A stretch of 46,718 nt of DNA from Bacteroidota bacterium (GTDB lineage: Bacteria > Bacteroidota > Bacteroidia > Chitinophagales > LD1), in NCBI GenBank assembly GCA_025963485.1, contig JAOQAO010000193.1, positions 1 through 46,718 on the forward strand, written 5' to 3'. Below are positions 4,904-25,271 of this stretch, in pieces. The notes beneath the pieces were generated by a model. That model ran no database searches. It had not been told where the DNA came from and saw only the letters and a program-made list of their open reading frames with translations. The position numbers and the translations under genes were made by a program. The first letter of the stretch is position 1. Each line of letters opens with the position of its first letter.

Positions 4904-7900
4904 ATGAAGTTGAGGCCCGTACACGTTGTTTTATTTTTTGTGGTCTTCTTTCTCAGCGCCGGACTGAGAACAATGGCACAGGTCCCAACGAACTGTTTTG
5001 AAATAGGAACGATACTCGTCGATGCATGCGGATCTCCTGAGGGCGAGAACGAAATGTTCAGATTTCAAGTGGGCCCCAATCCTATCAACTCGGCAAATTT
5101 GTCTATCACCTGGCCCAATAATTCCTTTCTGGGCTTTTGTACAGACTCCGTAAAACTAGCTGCCCTGAATGCAACAATAAACGGCTGCGGGATATTATTG
5201 GCTCCTCCGGGGGGCATATTACCTGCTGGCAAAGAAGTACTTGTCATCACAAGTACTAATATGAATGTCTCTTTCAACTCCTTTGCAAATCTGAATGACA
5301 CGTTGTATGTATTGTTTCAATGTGCCGGTAACACATCAGGGCATTTTGCTAATTATAGTACCAGCGGCGGTTCGCAAGCGAGGACTCTGATATTAACAGA
5401 AACTACCTCCGGATGCGCAGATACGGTAACGTATATGAAGAACTTACTGATCAACCAGTCTGGTAACCATTCGGCGACAAATGGTGATGGGGCCGGAGCC
5501 AGTTTCGACTATGCTGGTAATATCACCTATTATAACAACGGATGCAACGCTCCTTTTATAGCACCATCCATACATGTGGGCAATGACACCACCTATACCT
5601 TTTGTGCATCGCCGATAATAATAAATCTCGCCGGCACTAAAACCGGTAGCTTCCGATCTACCCGCTGGGAAGGGGGCAACGGTACTTTTAGCCAACCGGA
5701 TTCTCTTACTACTACCTATACCCTGTCGCCTGCAGATATATCTCCTATCCAGTTTGTCCTCGTAGGCAGGCTTTGTCCGGATTCATTGATGGATACTATC
5801 AGTATTATCATCAATCCACCGGTACATGTCATTCAGGCACTCACTATTTGCCAGGGCAATTCATATACCATCGGTACTCACACTTACACCTCAACCGGTG
5901 CTTATCACGATACGCTACTGACAGTCACCGGCTGCGATAGCGTTGTCACTACGGATCTCACCGTCATCCCTTTTACAGCTCAAACAGTGCCACTATCAGG
6001 ATGTAATAGTGTAACCTACAATGGTACGGCATATAACTCAAGTACGACAATACTCGATACACTGAGAGGATCGACAGGTTGTGACAGTATACACTATACT
6101 GTCAATATAACTGTAAAATATGCCACGGCCCTTACACAAAACCTGATCGTATGCCCGGGTCAGAGTATCACTATCGGAACGAATGTGCATAGCAGTGCCG
6201 GAACGTTCATTGACGTTTTGACAAACGCAGCTGGATGCGATAGTACCGTCACGACGACCTTATCATTTGCGAATAATACCGTAGATGCGGGCAATAACGT
6301 GACCATCTGCAAAGGAGATTCTACACAACTGCAAGCTACCGGAGGACTCATCTATACCTGGACGCCTGCTACCGGCCTCAGCAACCCTAATATCGCAAAC
6401 CCTGAAGCCAAACCTAATACGACCACAACTTATGTAGTGACATCGTCCGTAGCATCTTCCAGTCAAATAGTGAATGGCGACTTCAGTGGCGGTAATACAG
6501 GCTTTAGCTCCAGCTATACCTACACCTCTCCTACCAATCTCGTGGAGGGTGAATACACGGTCACCAATAATCCCCAGTCATGGAATGGTGGCCTGTCTGC
6601 GTGCGGTGACCATACTACAGGTTCGGGTAATATGCTTGTAGTAAATGGCGCTGTGACTGCAAATGTATCTGTCTATTGCCAGACCGTCAGCGTCGTGCCT
6701 AATACAGATTATGCTTTCTCAACATGGTTGCAGAGTGTTTCATCGCCCAATCCTGCGCAATTGCAATTTTCGATAAACAGTTCGCTTCTTGGATCGGTGT
6801 TCTCGGCCTCAGTTACTGTATGCAACTGGCAGCAATTTTACGCGACGTGGAATTCGGGTACCAGCACTACAGCCAATATCTGTATCGTAAATCAAAACAC
6901 GATCGCATCCGGCAATGACTTTGCGCTGGATGACATTTCATTTTCTCCCATATGCATTGGTGTAGATTCTGTGACTGTGACTGTCACACAGCCGGTCACA
7001 AGTACTCAGAATCCTACTATCTGTCAGGGCCAGACATTTAATGCCGGCACTCATTCTTATACTACTTCAGGTACGTATACCGACACAGTGATCGGTGGCG
7101 CTGCATCAGGTTGCGATAGTATAGTGACTACAAACCTTAACGTCATCTCTCCTGTAGCAGGCGCTTTATCCGTCAGTGGATCATGTTCCGTGGTTTACAA
7201 CGGCCAGACCTATACATCCGGTACCGTCGTCGCAGATACTATCAGGAGCCAGATCGGTGGATGTGATAGTATTTATCGCGCTGTGACTATCACCGTCACT
7301 CCGGTAGCGACCAGTACGGTGAATAAAAATGCCTGTATCAATCCGGGGCAATCTTATTTCGCAGGTGGACAAAACCAGACAACTGCCGGCATTTACAACG
7401 ACACCATTCGCACCACCGGGGGCTGCGATAGCATCTATACTATCACTAACCTGAGTCTCATCACACCGACGAATACTTCGCGCCGGATAGATAGTTGCAA
7501 TCGTGTCACCGTGGGCGGTGTAGTCTTCACTACGGATACTGTTATATCTGACGTCGTCACATCTGTTTTGGGATGCGATAGTATAGTGCGGACAGATAGC
7601 ATACACATACATAGTCCGTTTACGATCAGTATTACTTCTTCACAGGTATTGCCATTGGTAGAGGGAGATTCTACGCTGCTTAGTATTGTTCCATCAGGGA
7701 CCTATCACAACGTCGTCTGGTCTCCGGATTCAAACATCAGCAGCACAAGTAGTACATCTCCTATGGTGGCACCTCATCGCACCACTACTTACGCTGTAGT
7801 AGCAGCTGATAGTAATAACTGTAGTGTATCGGGATCGATAGAGGTACCGGTCACAGCCAATTCTCAGCTTGATTTCATCATGCCGACAGCTTTCTCACCA

Positions 7901-18910: not shown

Positions 18911-18983
18911 GATTCCGTAGCTCAGCTGGTAGAGCAATACACTTTTAATGTATGGGTCTCGGGTTCGAATCCCGACGGGATCA
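18911..18983 (+). tRNA. tRNA-Lys (anticodon TTT)
   Basis: GATTCCG...CGGGATC-A acceptor stem (one G-T pair), D arm GCTCAGCTGGTAGAGC, anticodon loop CTTTTAA, TPsiC arm CGGGTTCGAATCCCG. Confidence 0.97.
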
Positions 18984-19066
18984 CGTAGGTTCATTAGAAC
19001 CGCAAACATAATAGTCGAAACACTTGCAATAGCAAGGGTCTCGGCTATTTGTATTTTATGGCCGTC

Positions 19067-19127
19067 CGTTACCCGATACGTTACCCTACATGGCTACAGT
19101 AGTACATTTCATCATCTCACGTTACCC
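19067..19127 (+). repeat. Three CGTTACCC direct repeats between tRNA-Lys and the integrase start
   Basis: CGTTACCC at 19067-19074, 19079-19086 and 19120-19127; first and third extend to CGTTACCCGA. Confidence 0.7.
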
Positions 19128-19131
19128 GAAA

Positions 19132-20286
19132 ATGAATAAGGTAACATTCCATGTCAAGGCTCGAAAGGACAAGGTGAACAAGCGCGGTGAGGCTCCATTG
19201 TGTCTTCATGTTATGGTGAATGGCGACCGCGACCTGATTCCGCTAAGTATCATGGTTCCGTTTAAGGATTTCGATGAGAGCAAGCGTGAAATGAAGGCTA
19301 AGGCGAAAGATGCCCACCTGATCAATGAGATGGCCGGTAATGCCAAAACCAAGGCGCTGGAAGTGCTCCGGGATGCTGACAAGGCCTCTCTACTCCTAGA
19401 TAAGAAAACCTTCAGGGCCAGGTTCGCTCATGCTTACGGTGACGATTTCGGGTGCTTCTGGGAAGGAGCGCTGCTGAAGCGGAAGGAATCTCTCGCCGGG
19501 GATACCCACAAAATGCATAAGAGCCAGTTGAAGAAGTTCAGAGGCTTCCGGCCGTCCCTCTCCTTTTCATTCATCAATAAGGCGCTGATCGAGTCCTATG
19601 ACACCTATCTGAAGAAAAGGGGCAACTCTGTCAATACCCGGCGTACAGCTCTCAAAGTACTCCAGACGTATATCAACATCGCGAAGGATTCAGATATACC
19701 GATCAAGGATCCTTTTACAACCTTCAAAATCCCTCCTGAGCAGTCCACTCGTGACTCCCTCACAAAGGTGCAGCTCAAGCGGCTCCTGGAGATATATGAC
19801 AAGAGGGAACTGGAAGAACACCTGCACTATACGCTGATGCTGTTTCTACTGTCATGCTTCACGGCCATGCGTATTGGGGATGTTGTAAAATTTGGTGCGA
19901 AGATGCTCAAGGAAGGCAAGCTGATATATATGCCACGCAAGTCACTGAACTACGAGAAGGTGATAAAGATAGATCTGACTAAAATATCGAGAAGGATCAT
20001 CAAGGATGTACTGAGCTTTATCAGCTCTGGTGGCAGGATAAAATCTCAGCAAAAGATAAACGAGGACCTGAAGCATATCGCATCCTCTGCCGACATTACT
20101 CTAAACCTCACCTTCCATATCAGCCGGCACACTTTCGCAACTACCTTCCTTCGGATCGGTGGAACACTGGAGACGCTTCAGCGGATAATGGGCCATAGCA
20201 AAATGGCAACGACTCAGATCTACGCGCATATGATAGATGAGCGGATCGAAAAGGAGATGAACAACTTTAACAATGAATTTGAATAA
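19132..20286 (+). CDS. int: Tyrosine recombinase / phage integrase
   Basis: Arm-binding N-terminus, SAM-like core-binding domain, catalytic pattern 'TAMRIGDV...K...HISRHTFATTFLRIGGTLETLQRIMGHSKMATTQIYAHM'. Preferred ATG 19132 (MNKVTFHVKARKD). Confidence 0.95.
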   Translation: MNKVTFHVKARKDKVNKRGEAPLCLHVMVNGDRDLIPLSIMVPFKDFDESKREMKAKAKDAHLINEMAGNAKTKALEVLRDADKASLLLDKKTFRARFAHAYGDDFGCFWEGALLKRKESLAGDTHKMHKSQLKKFRGFRPSLSFSFINKALIESYDTYLKKRGNSVNTRRTALKVLQTYINIAKDSDIPIKDPFTTFKIPPEQSTRDSLTKVQLKRLLEIYDKRELEEHLHYTLMLFLLSCFTAMRIGDVVKFGAKMLKEGKLIYMPRKSLNYEKVIKIDLTKISRRIIKDVLSFISSGGRIKSQQKINEDLKHIASSADITLNLTFHISRHTFATTFLRIGGTLETLQRIMGHSKMATTQIYAHMIDERIEKEMNNFNNEFE

Positions 20287-21219: not shown

Positions 21220-21972
21220 TTAGAAAAAGATTACAGGCTCTTCTGTGGCCTGATTGAATAGCGTAGCTGGCTCAGGTGGCTTTATAGCTTCGGCGTCCCT
21301 ATATCGCATTACATCGCTTTCGCCCTGGCTGATGGGTTGAATGTTAAAAACTGCATACTTCCTATATGCGTTTACCTTCCATCCCTGTATCCAGTGATTG
21401 GCTCTCAGCGCGTCGTGATGTATAACCTCTCCCTCTAAGCCGTGTATCAGGAAATTGAGTACACAGATTTTGCAGCACATGCCGTCGAGGTCTTCGGCGT
21501 AGGCTAACATTTTCCCCTTCAAACGCATGTGAGCTGATAGCAGCATCCGACCGCTACCCGCGCAGGGATCACTCACAGTTTGCACCTTATCCGTTTCATC
21601 ATCTATGACCATAGCAGCCATACAATCAACAAGGTGCTCGGGAGTAAAGAACTGCCCTAGCTTAGATTTGTGATACTTACCACTTAGGTACTGGTAGTAA
21701 TTACCGAGCAGGTCTTTATATATCCAGTCATCGGATGCAATCGCATCGTGGGTACACATCACCCATGTATGGAAAAGCTCCGCGAATAGTTTTAGTTCCT
21801 GCTCATTGTACGTTTTCCGCATCCTCTCAGCAAGCCCCTCGGTAGGGACTAGCTGAAAGTTTGATACTGCGATAGAAAGAAAGTCGTCAAATATTTGGAG
21901 ATGGTCCCATCTGTACGTGAGTTGCTCGAATATCTTGTCAAAGGGTTTAATCCACGTTGGTATCTGTTCCAT
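21220..21972 (-). CDS. N6-adenine DNA-methyltransferase-like protein (no recognisable NPPY motif)
   Basis: 'KLGQFFTPEHLVDCMA', SAM-binding motif I 'SDPCAGSGRMLLSAHM'; no NPP[YFW] in 250 aa. Confidence 0.7.
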   Translation of the reverse strand: MEQIPTWIKPFDKIFEQLTYRWDHLQIFDDFLSIAVSNFQLVPTEGLAERMRKTYNEQELKLFAELFHTWVMCTHDAIASDDWIYKDLLGNYYQYLSGKYHKSKLGQFFTPEHLVDCMAAMVIDDETDKVQTVSDPCAGSGRMLLSAHMRLKGKMLAYAEDLDGMCCKICVLNFLIHGLEGEVIHHDALRANHWIQGWKVNAYRKYAVFNIQPISQGESDVMRYRDAEAIKPPEPATLFNQATEEPVIFF

Positions 21973-22180
21973 AGGGGTAGTTTAGAGATTCTTCGTATGT
22001 CTTGAATGCAAAAGGGTACTGAGTACTTAGCACCTCTAACGCAGTCATGTGAATGGATACAGTGGATATTTTATCGCAACTGTTAGACCGATTAATGATA
22101 GATATTAACTGTTCCGGTGTTTTATCTTTCAATGCGTCAATGAGAAATTGAGCGGGTTCTATTGCTATTTCAATTGTCAT
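21947..22180 (-). CDS. Hypothetical phage protein, 77 aa
   Basis: Overlaps the methyltransferase-like and ArdC-like ORFs in a polycistronic arrangement. Confidence 0.5.
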   Translation of the reverse strand: MTIEIAIEPAQFLIDALKDKTPEQLISIINRSNSCDKISTVSIHMTALEVLSTQYPFAFKTYEESLNYPYGTDTNVD

Positions 22181-22502
22181 TTTTGGGATTGGTTTGTGTT
22201 ATATCGAATACATAAGCCAGTGGAAAAAATTTCATTTCGTCATCTTCGGGCGCGGGAGCTGCTGCTGCGCTGCCATCTGCTGGCTGCCGTTGTTGGTTGG
22301 GTCTACCCCATAATAAAAGTGCCTTCTCGCCTTTCTTGACTACTCGCCCTTCACTGTTCCACGTGCGTAATGACTTCAAATCTGTGTAGCCCTTTTCCGC
22401 GTACATCAGGACAAGTAATTCGTTTACTGTTTGGCCTTCCTCCTGCTGTGGCAGAGTAGCACAGATAGCCTTTAGCTCATCCCTTCTTGGGTTGATTGAC
22501 AT
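22170..22502 (-). CDS. Stand-alone ArdC-N-terminal-like (ssDNA-binding/antirestriction) protein
   Basis: 'LRTWNSEGRVVKKGEKALLLWGRP...FFPLAYVFDITQT' matches the ArdC N-domain pattern (W..xGxxVxKGEK.....VFDxxQT); no C-terminal metalloprotease domain. Confidence 0.6.
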   Translation of the reverse strand: MSINPRRDELKAICATLPQQEEGQTVNELLVLMYAEKGYTDLKSLRTWNSEGRVVKKGEKALLLWGRPNQQRQPADGSAAAAPAPEDDEMKFFPLAYVFDITQTNPKNDN

Positions 22503-22569: not shown

Positions 22570-23046
22570 TTAGCCTAGCGCAATGATTTCATTTGCGGTC
22601 TGTTCTTGCTTTGTGGTTAGTTCCTTCATTATTTCATTCAGGACATTTTTGATAACCACAGGGTTACAGGTGCGGAACTTTGCGCCTTTACCATCTGTCA
22701 GATCGAGTATGTTAGTACTCTCATCTGTAGCTATTTTGAAGCGTTCCAGCTCCTTCTTGCTAGTTGCATATTTGGCCTCTTTCTCGAAAAGTAGATTTAG
22801 CTTTTCGTTTTTATCCCTTTGGGATTGGAGAGTAGGCACAGGTAGAATGACCGGCGCGGGTGGTTCGGATGTCACCTCTGCCTTTTTATCCATTGGAGGA
22901 TTCATGTGTTGGACATAAGGGAATGTGTCCGCGTTTGCTTTTAGCTTTTCGTTATCATCGATAACTTTTTGAATCTCAGTGTATTTAACACCTTTCTTGT
23001 TTGTGCCGTTGAGGGTGGCACTGCCGTTGTTGGAGTTGGTACTCAT
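22570..23046 (-). CDS. Hypothetical phage protein, 158 aa
   Basis: ORF following an AT-rich promoter-like region and leader element. Confidence 0.6.
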   Translation of the reverse strand: MSTNSNNGSATLNGTNKKGVKYTEIQKVIDDNEKLKANADTFPYVQHMNPPMDKKAEVTSEPPAPVILPVPTLQSQRDKNEKLNLLFEKEAKYATSKKELERFKIATDESTNILDLTDGKGAKFRTCNPVVIKNVLNEIMKELTTKQEQTANEIIALG

Positions 23047-23055
23047 GTTGTTTTT

Positions 23056-23083
23056 TGCGACCTGTTAAAGACTGCGCCTGTCT
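23056..23083 (-). promoter_or_regulatory. Duplicated phage leader/operator element, copy A
   Basis: Minus strand AGACAGGCGCAGTCTTTAACAGGTCGCA, 9 nt before the ATG of 22570..23046; 26/28 identical to 35123-35149. Confidence 0.7.
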
Positions 23084-23323
23084 GTTGTGATTAATAATAA
23101 TTAGACTATAAAGATTGTCAAAGGTTTAAAGGTTATTTGTTAAAAGAATATTTATTTTATTAACTATTTAAACAGCTGTTATCCTTTTATTTAATGTTCC
23201 TTAAAGATAAATAAAAGACACGAAATGACAAAGGATTTTGATTAAATTCTTCGCATGAGTTTCATATATAAACACCCTGTTTATCAACATTTTATATTGA
23301 TATTTTTCTAAAACAAAAAACAA

Positions 23324-23581
23324 GTCGTTAAACGACCACACTGGCGCCTGTGGAATATGGCAATTTCCAAAATCGAAAAGCAGGGAAATATGAGAAAACC
23401 ATGCCCTATGTGGCCCCTCGGGACCATTGCCTTTGAGCTAGGCATTTTAGATAGGGTGATGTGATGATACGAGCCGCCAACCCAGTTGCGCATCGCACGG
23501 GTCAGGCGAAGGGGAAGAGCGTCACTCTATCCCATGCACGAACGCCAGCACTTCCCCTGCTTCAGGGGGGTGTGCTGGCGT
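23324..23581. ncRNA. Candidate structured non-coding RNA or structured cis-acting DNA element
   Basis: No convincing ORF; stems: GTCGT/ACGAC 23324-23336, CCACA/TGTGG 23336-23353, TGCCT/AGGCA 23428-23444, GATAGGGTGA/TCACTCTATC 23450-23459 with 23522-23531, ACCC/GGGT + TGCG/CGCA 23480-23502, ACGCCAGCAC/GTGCTGGCGT + CCCCTG/CAGGGG 23542-23581. Confidence 0.5.
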
Positions 23582-23642
23582 GTATTAAGTTAGTGATAGA
23601 AGCGTGTACCATGTACAGCGTATAGCACGGCGCATAGCGCAA

Positions 23643-25271
23643 CTATATAGAGAATGTAATATCGTCCCCATCCAGTAGGTGCTCACACTCGTACCCTACG
23701 ATCATATCGAAGCAGTCACTCAGGTGGGTAGCCCTCCACTGCTCATCAGCTGGCAGGTTAGTCTCGCTGGTTTTATCCTTCTCAAAGTCCTTCTGGCCTT
23801 GCTTGATAGGTGCCTTGGACATGGACCATAGGGTCTCATAGCAATTGTTCTGGTTGATCTGGAAGGTGGGGAAGCGCTCATCCCGCTCATCCCTTGAATC
23901 AAGGACATAGTTGACTATCCTGTACTTGGTCTTGTGGGGTATGTATGCATTGTGATCATTGCCACGTATCACCTCCCAGTCATTGGCTACCAGTATAGTT
24001 ATCACAGTTTCTATATCAGACTCCGTGGTATTGGTCTTCTCCCTGTGGCCAGACGGATCATCGTAGATGTAGATTACCCTGTGCACATGAGGCTTGTAGT
24101 ATGCACAGAACTCCCTGACCAGATCCTCCAGCTTACTGGGTGACTGAGCAGTGAAGTTCTTCAACCCCCAATATACATGCCCGTAGAGCTGCATCACAAG
24201 CATCCAGTTCCAGGTGGTGCCATAGTCGAGGCCGATCCTCAACGGTAGATCAGCCCTCCAGTCCTTATCCAATTGGCAATCCCTGCCCTTTCCAGCGCGA
24301 TAGCGGTCCAGGCCGATAGTTTCTATGCGGCTGTAGTTACTCTTGTCACTGTAGCCATGTATGGACTCGTCAAGGTAGGTATAGAAGCCATTCTCTATCT
24401 CCGGTACATCCTCATTCAGGATAGAGGTACGGAACTCGATCAGGCTGGAGTTTCGGTAGGCATTCTTGAAATAATCGATTCCAAGGAATGCAAGGTTCTC
24501 CAGAGTACTCGGTGTTAGGAACATCGTGGCCTCGCGTTGTTTCTTCCAGATATAGCGCTGTAGTGGCATATTAAAATCCTTCTGCAATTTCATCTGTAGA
24601 AGGATTATCTCGAGTAAATCTTTATAGGCCGTAGCGCTGTCTGCATAGCGGTCGATCCACCGGAAATCACGCTTACCATAATAGCTATCCTGGGTAATGA
24701 TCAGTCCGGTGTGTCCCGGCAGGTCCCTCCAGCATGTACCGTCCTCATTGACGATGCTGGCGTGGCCGGACATTGTCTTCAGCAGCTCGCTGTCAACCCT
24801 GACCGGATCCAGCTGCTTCGCCTCATCGATGGCGCCGTGATCCATAGACAGGCCATTGGATGAGCTGGAGTGGTCAAACGATATCAAGTGGATCCCGCTG
24901 CCGTTTTTGGCAGTTATGAAATGGTCGAATGTACGAGGCCGTACAATCGTATTTTTCAACCACGACTTTGGCGGTGTCTTACACACTACAAAGTCCTCAT
25001 CTTCCACCCAGCCCAACATCTTCCATCCGGATATCACTTCCGGCAGGAGGTGATCGAGGATCTTCCGGTAACTTTTACCGGCAAAGAATCCGGAGCTGCC
25101 AGGCATAGACTCCATATTGTGTTTTAGTGTAGGCGCTACCATGCCTGTAGTCTTGCCGAGCCTACGGCCACCCTTGATGATCTTGTATCGTGTATTAGCA
25201 GCTGACATGATCAGCTGCGGCTTATTTCTATAAACCTCAATTTGCTTAGTATCCTGTGCTAGTGCGATCAT
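23643..25271 (-). CDS. Phage terminase large subunit
   Basis: Walker A 'KGGRRLGKTTGMV', Walker-B-like 'HGAIDEAKQ', nuclease-like 'LRIGLDYGTTWNWMLVMQ'. Confidence 0.9.
   Translation of the reverse strand: MIALAQDTKQIEVYRNKPQLIMSAANTRYKIIKGGRRLGKTTGMVAPTLKHNMESMPGSSGFFAGKSYRKILDHLLPEVISGWKMLGWVEDEDFVVCKTPPKSWLKNTIVRPRTFDHFITAKNGSGIHLISFDHSSSSNGLSMDHGAIDEAKQLDPVRVDSELLKTMSGHASIVNEDGTCWRDLPGHTGLIITQDSYYGKRDFRWIDRYADSATAYKDLLEIILLQMKLQKDFNMPLQRYIWKKQREATMFLTPSTLENLAFLGIDYFKNAYRNSSLIEFRTSILNEDVPEIENGFYTYLDESIHGYSDKSNYSRIETIGLDRYRAGKGRDCQLDKDWRADLPLRIGLDYGTTWNWMLVMQLYGHVYWGLKNFTAQSPSKLEDLVREFCAYYKPHVHRVIYIYDDPSGHREKTNTTESDIETVITILVANDWEVIRGNDHNAYIPHKTKYRIVNYVLDSRDERDERFPTFQINQNNCYETLWSMSKAPIKQGQKDFEKDKTSETNLPADEQWRATHLSDCFDMIVGYECEHLLDGDDITFSI

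Follow-up and report, generated by a model that had tools for sequence, protein, structure and literature searches.

The window (the whole stretch of DNA analysed here, 46,718 nt) is an entire contig of a 4.5-Mb Bacteroidota genome, and it holds a prophage which adjoins a tRNA-Lys gene (18911-18984) and has an integrase at 19090-20286. From the right edge of the window, prophage genes are read leftward as far as terL, whose product matches PHROG 2 (E 3e-6) and is 29.9% identical (tblastn) to the annotated terminase large subunit of a Microcystis phage. Its relatives in GenBank come chiefly from Flavobacterium, Cellulophaga, Polaribacter and Porphyromonas phages, plus the one 'Microcystis' phage, while terL-based locus searches of our viral contig set and genome contig set returned none. 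The 204-aa gene upstream of terL had no match in family searches and is, by size and position, a candidate terminase small subunit; other carriers of the DNA element described below have a comparably long gene (180-217 aa) at this place.

A 596-nt gap separates terL from a second leftward operon, which starts at 23046 and also codes for an ArdC-like protein and an N6-methylase. The homologue of its first ORF in a syntenic relative (genome G028, contig DLGO01000146.1, also our locus L026) is 33% identical over 94 aa (E 6e-13) and lies on the same side of the element; that contig also has an integrase-like ORF and an ORF of 191 aa, the size of the window's PLD/endonuclease-like gene. The genes at 21220-22502 (N6-methylase, ArdC-like protein) resemble genes by terL in phage laban6-1, where a methylase and an ArdC-like gene are kept near terL, and also genes (N-6 methylase, DUF2958) of the Bacteroides plasmid pBuniCL06T06-1, which carries the element. 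Coordinates are collected in Table 1.

Table 1. Features around the terL end of the prophage (window coordinates).
Feature	Position	Strand	Basis or remark
First ORF of second leftward operon, 158 aa	22570..23046	-	homologue in DLGO01000146.1
AT-rich region, 25% G+C, upstream of second leftward operon	23047..23310	-	promoter-like site; partly aligns to relative
Terminator-like hairpin GGTCGTTTAACGACT then TGTTTTTTGT	23323..23337	-	consensus match only
Flagged stretch, structured but unconserved	23324..23581	-	between terL stop and terminator-like site; putative 3' untranslated region
Conserved element of the R1 family, folded DNA	23587..23645	+	R1 match; overlaps terL stop codon 23643-23645
P1, window copy	AGTT 23588-23591 / AACT 23641-23644	+	pairs read from sequence
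P1b, window copy	GTG 23593-23595 / CAC 23626-23628	+	pairs read from sequence
P2 outer, window copy	GC 23602-23603 / GC 23618-23619	+	pairs read from sequence
P2 inner, window copy	TGTAC 23605-23609 / GTACA 23613-23617, loop CAT	+	pairs read from sequence
P3, window copy	GCGC 23630-23633 / GCGC 23637-23640	+	pairs read from sequence
terL, terminase large subunit, 542 aa	23643..25271	-	final gene of leftward structural operon
Gene upstream of terL, 204 aa	25268..25882	-	size and position; terminase-small-subunit candidate

A preliminary description had flagged 23324-23581 as a strongly structured non-coding element beside an AT-rich tract, and its letter-level observations are accurate. The segments GATAGGGTGA (23450-23459) and TCACTCTATC (23522-23531), the hairpin at 23542-23581, and CCCTAT (23404-23409) and ATAGGG (23451-23456), the proposed partners in a possible switch between two folds, are all where it placed them, and G+C content does rise from 0.25 in 23047-23310 to 0.55 in 23324-23581. 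Structure is strong as well: the plus-strand fold of 23310-23600 reaches -104.8 kcal/mol (z -3.82, equalled by 0/200 dinucleotide shuffles) and contains the long-range GATAGGGTGA/TCACTCTATC helix, and the minus strand, less clear than the plus, reaches -96.7 kcal/mol (z -2.45, equalled by 3/200).

As a conserved unit, the flagged stretch did not hold up. It has no second copy in its own genome and no counterpart in DLGO01000146.1, to which the window aligns at 23042-23181 and at the element, with nothing between. The best local alignment of 23041-23586 to that contig reaches only 23042-23181, with a score of 72 (the five highest of 50 shuffles scored 51-65). Short, weak blastn matches elsewhere (e.g. 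30 nt in genome G017) lie inside a coding ORF and are probably due to chance. Most likely, 23324-23581 is a 3' untranslated region, structured but otherwise unremarkable, in the terL-operon transcript, for which the terminator-like site at 23337-23323 (-) is a plausible end. The AT-rich tract had been proposed as the unwinding region of a replication origin, but it needs none, because the best candidate promoter for the leftward operon lies inside it (TTGACA-16-TATTAT, 23121-23094, minus strand) and the tract is partly conserved with that operon.

What is conserved begins 6 nt beyond the flagged range. The preliminary description was right that a structured non-coding element without an Rfam match lies beside terL, and wrong about its extent: the conserved part is a 59-nt sequence at 23587-23645. 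At curated scores, Rfam 15 matches only the tRNA-Lys gene in the window, and relaxed searches yielded nothing beyond weak chance matches in other places. R1, a covariance model built from nine sequences with the window excluded, finds the window copy with 31.6 bits (E 2.4e-6 in a search of 233 kb and 4.6e-5 in one of the whole genome), and it recovers the copies in the Microcystis phage (E 1e-5) and in DLGO01000146.1 (E 9e-5). These three copies have in common a GTG/CAC P1b and the P2 loop TACC[AG]TGTA, and 23588-23630 is 86% identical to DLGO01000146.1 over 43 bp (blastn). The window copy is divergent, with an A-A mismatch at the outermost P1 pair and no CCCAAAT tail; together with its weak score, these losses suggest that it may have decayed.

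Family members are repeats of roughly 60-90 bases with a common fold. From the 5' end, helix P1 is followed by an A and by helix P1b (GGG/CCC, GTG/CAC or GCG/CGC), which closes an ATWGNAG...GGAWAG internal loop and the variable arm P2; a CG then leads to hairpin P3, and the whole is enclosed by P1. The sequence of P1 varies (GCGTG, GCGTT, GGCTT, GCGAT, GAGTT and others), the unpaired loops are conserved, and so is a 3' tail, CC(A)AAAT, while the 5' flank is not. A search of non-subscription papers (main texts), by consensus sequence and by intergenic palindromes in Bacteroidota, found no description of the element.

The preliminary description had proposed a search for covarying pairs among homologues, and covariation is indeed strong in the family of 23587-23645, which lies outside the flagged range. 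Two locus sets were used, one found with a core pattern in which P1 and P3 play no part and the other consisting of R1 matches. In both sets, 94.5-94.6% of cells are paired in the fold, and covariation reaches 0.348 and 0.230, whereas slid partners give no more than 0.056, some of the alignments behind these figures having been fitted to the model. Of 105 core matches, counting related copies, 93 have a perfect 5-nt P1 partner, as do 144 of 2000 random places. G-T and A-C combinations are nearly absent from P1 (3 and 2 of 360 cells), whereas G-U makes up 18 of 154 pairs in the tRNA acceptor stems of six sampled genomes of the group. This near-absence of G-U amid very strong covariation speaks, if indirectly, against the earlier reading of a phage non-coding RNA. 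Because the covariation is strictly Watson-Crick and without strand preference, pairing in the element appears to be maintained at the DNA level; an RNA under unusual constraint is a formal alternative.

R1 matches occur in the window, Bacteroidota microviruses, Bacteroides plasmids, tailed phages and chromosomes. Of 399 Bacteroidota genomes searched with stricter filters, 49 have a match at E<=0.01. Copy number in six complete genomes is 3-17 each, and five matches in the genome of the window score above 31 bits. The motif is also found in Microcystis phage Mea-Yong924-1, microvirus Dulem virus 252 and further microviruses, and its plasmid carriers are Bacteroides uniformis and Phocaeicola plasmids. 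Chromosomal copies sit in ordinary intergenic spacers, often 1-31 nt past a stop codon. An opposing gene stops within 30 nt to the right of 23/36 viral and 9/31 chromosomal copies. In MG945248 (L048, 5516-5590) and Microvirus mar49 (L049, 4592-4669), the copy is opposite all annotated genes, just past the Rep stop. Using skew-based origins, copies in six complete chromosomes show no significant replichore bias (47 vs 34), and a striking 8/8 orientation seen in one genome with arbitrary halves did not carry over to that comparison.

Some copies suggest movement. Genome G604 has two, 280 kb apart, which are identical at 83 of 86 positions while their 60-nt flanks are only 27% and 35% identical; gene conversion between copies may also play a part. 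An orthologous locus was compared across one genus: R1 has a match in 17 of the 25 loci retrieved, and three (L308, L310, L314) have short spacers of 60-111 nt with no match. Where the element is present there, the DNA that adjoins it on the left varies from genome to genome and often holds a different small gene. Most copies are not recent, since they are often divergent. A pair of inverted copies 1.5 kb apart in genome G310 was considered and set aside: it encloses an ordinary gene and no transposase.

Among known systems, the element is closest in habit to the repetitive extragenic palindromes (REPs) associated with RAYTs, which include GTAG- and CGTC-tagged families (PMC3733652). Both are short, dispersed palindromic DNA repeats of intergenic spacers that often abut a stop codon, recur almost unchanged at unrelated places and have a short conserved tag by the stem (here the 3' tail). 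However, a REP is one hairpin, whereas the element has three helices and conserved internal loops, and it also occurs in single-stranded DNA (ssDNA) phages, plasmids and tailed phages. A RAYT-mobilised REP as such finds no support: there is no GTAG/CGTC tag and no adjacent RAYT gene, with none of 30 Y1-transposase (PF01797) loci in ten genomes having the element within 1.5 kb. Integron attC sites are likewise folded DNA with a variable arm, often follow stop codons and, like the element at one Flavobacteriaceae-like locus, border different small genes in different genomes. The element's P1 is not fixed, however, and the RYYYAAC...GTTRRRY core boxes are missing, which argues against attC identity; nor were arrays seen. 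Single-strand origins such as the sso of ICEBs1 (PMC4595007) are folded ssDNA recognised by host enzymes. With these and with ssDNA promoters (sso, ssi/G4-type, n'-pas, Frpo) the element would have in common being folded DNA in ssDNA phages and conjugative plasmids, but it is dispersed in multiple copies in chromosomes and is on the other strand in two microviruses.

The explanation that best joins these observations, and one we would call about as likely right as wrong, is that the element is a mobile, REP-like folded DNA repeat of Bacteroidota found at the ends of transcription units. It would act as DNA that, once single-stranded or extruded, adopts a three-way fold, and a host protein would recognise it via the conserved loops. 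That protein, or some single-strand transposase, would spread it in REP-like fashion, and copies would gather at transcription-unit ends where insertion is tolerated or helps 3'-end formation. If the conserved loops do imply a common host factor, its identity would explain how these mobile elements come to have one site in common and would provide a marker of exchange among phages, plasmids and hosts. The motif is structured, strongly covarying DNA with no description found, present in Bacteroidota chromosomes and three classes of mobile element including ssDNA phages.

Several rivals must be weighed against the mobile repeat. The reverse complement of the element might fold in the adjacent transcript and stabilise or terminate the mRNA, with selection at operon ends spreading it. 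Copies just past stop codons, the viral preference for an opposing right-hand gene, and the plain terminator-like hairpin that phages 1H and 23T have at this position behind terL are what such a 3'-end RNA would predict; we nevertheless regard it as unlikely, given that no consistent T run follows the element, that G-U (or A-C for the other strand) is almost absent, and that copies also lie far from stops and in sense orientation. Distinctly unlikely, in our judgement, is a single-strand initiation site, at which exposed ssDNA (a microvirus genome, a transferred plasmid or the lagging-strand template) would fold and start the complementary strand. The recogniser could then be host primase, the primosome or RNA polymerase, by analogy with rolling-circle sso and with the G4-type, n'-pas and F-plasmid Frpo sites, which the element may resemble. 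Many ssDNA microviruses carry it in non-coding DNA, most of them on the strand that reads as gene sense, the Bacteroides plasmid copies adjoin traN/traM genes, and pairing appears to be at the DNA level. Against this are the two microviruses with the opposite strand and the lack of significant replichore orientation, and multi-copy dispersion in chromosomes would be unexpected. In its broader form, a host-recognised start site common to Bacteroidota microviruses, conjugative plasmids and tailed phages, with chromosomal copies as captured relics, this reading has the same small likelihood.

The association with terL noted in the preliminary description does recur in other phages, although the packaging role drawn from it finds no support. 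At 14 of the 23 viral loci with a nearby opposing stop, all from IMG/VR and picked up through the element only (two of them, L096 and L102, share the same element), the opposing gene to the right codes for a TerL homologue with 22-33% identity to that of the window, an arrangement like the window's own, and a further terL-adjacent copy (L020) was found through TerL. Adjacency of this kind resembles that of pRNA and cos/pac sites, but chromosomes, plasmids and microviruses carry the element with no terminase for it to serve, and its pairing appears to be at the DNA level. There is no R1 match by terL in the cultured relatives Ingeline_1, Leef_1, laban6-1, 1H and 23T, and the element is not beside terL in the two nearest carriers (the G028 contig and the Microcystis phage). 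Since its place at the end of the operon is enough to explain why terL adjoins the element, and since 1H and 23T have plain terminator-like hairpins where the element would be, the best reading is that adjacency reflects an operon end, and a packaging site (cos/pac) or packaging RNA is very improbable. Unusual folding beside terL is therefore not necessarily a packaging RNA.

Some individual loci deserve mention. One 6.8-kb viral contig (L036) has two copies (2748-2820 and 5529-5602), one of them near a terL fragment. The window's own genome has a Y1-transposase (RAYT-like) gene (L136, 900-1450) with palindromes of another kind around it, e.g. GCCCTGAAAGGGC and CGTGGGGCGATGCCCCACG. In L304-L327, from a Flavobacteriaceae-like genus (g68, the locus of L070), the spacer to the left of the chromosomal copy is hypervariable, and almost every genome has a different small ORF (acetyltransferase-like and several unknowns) between the conserved left gene and the element, and the spacers also hold other palindromic repeats. 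Finally, a good copy (38.8 bits) at 1470-1557 of a G+C-rich 79-kb viral contig (L039) hints that the family may reach beyond Bacteroidota.
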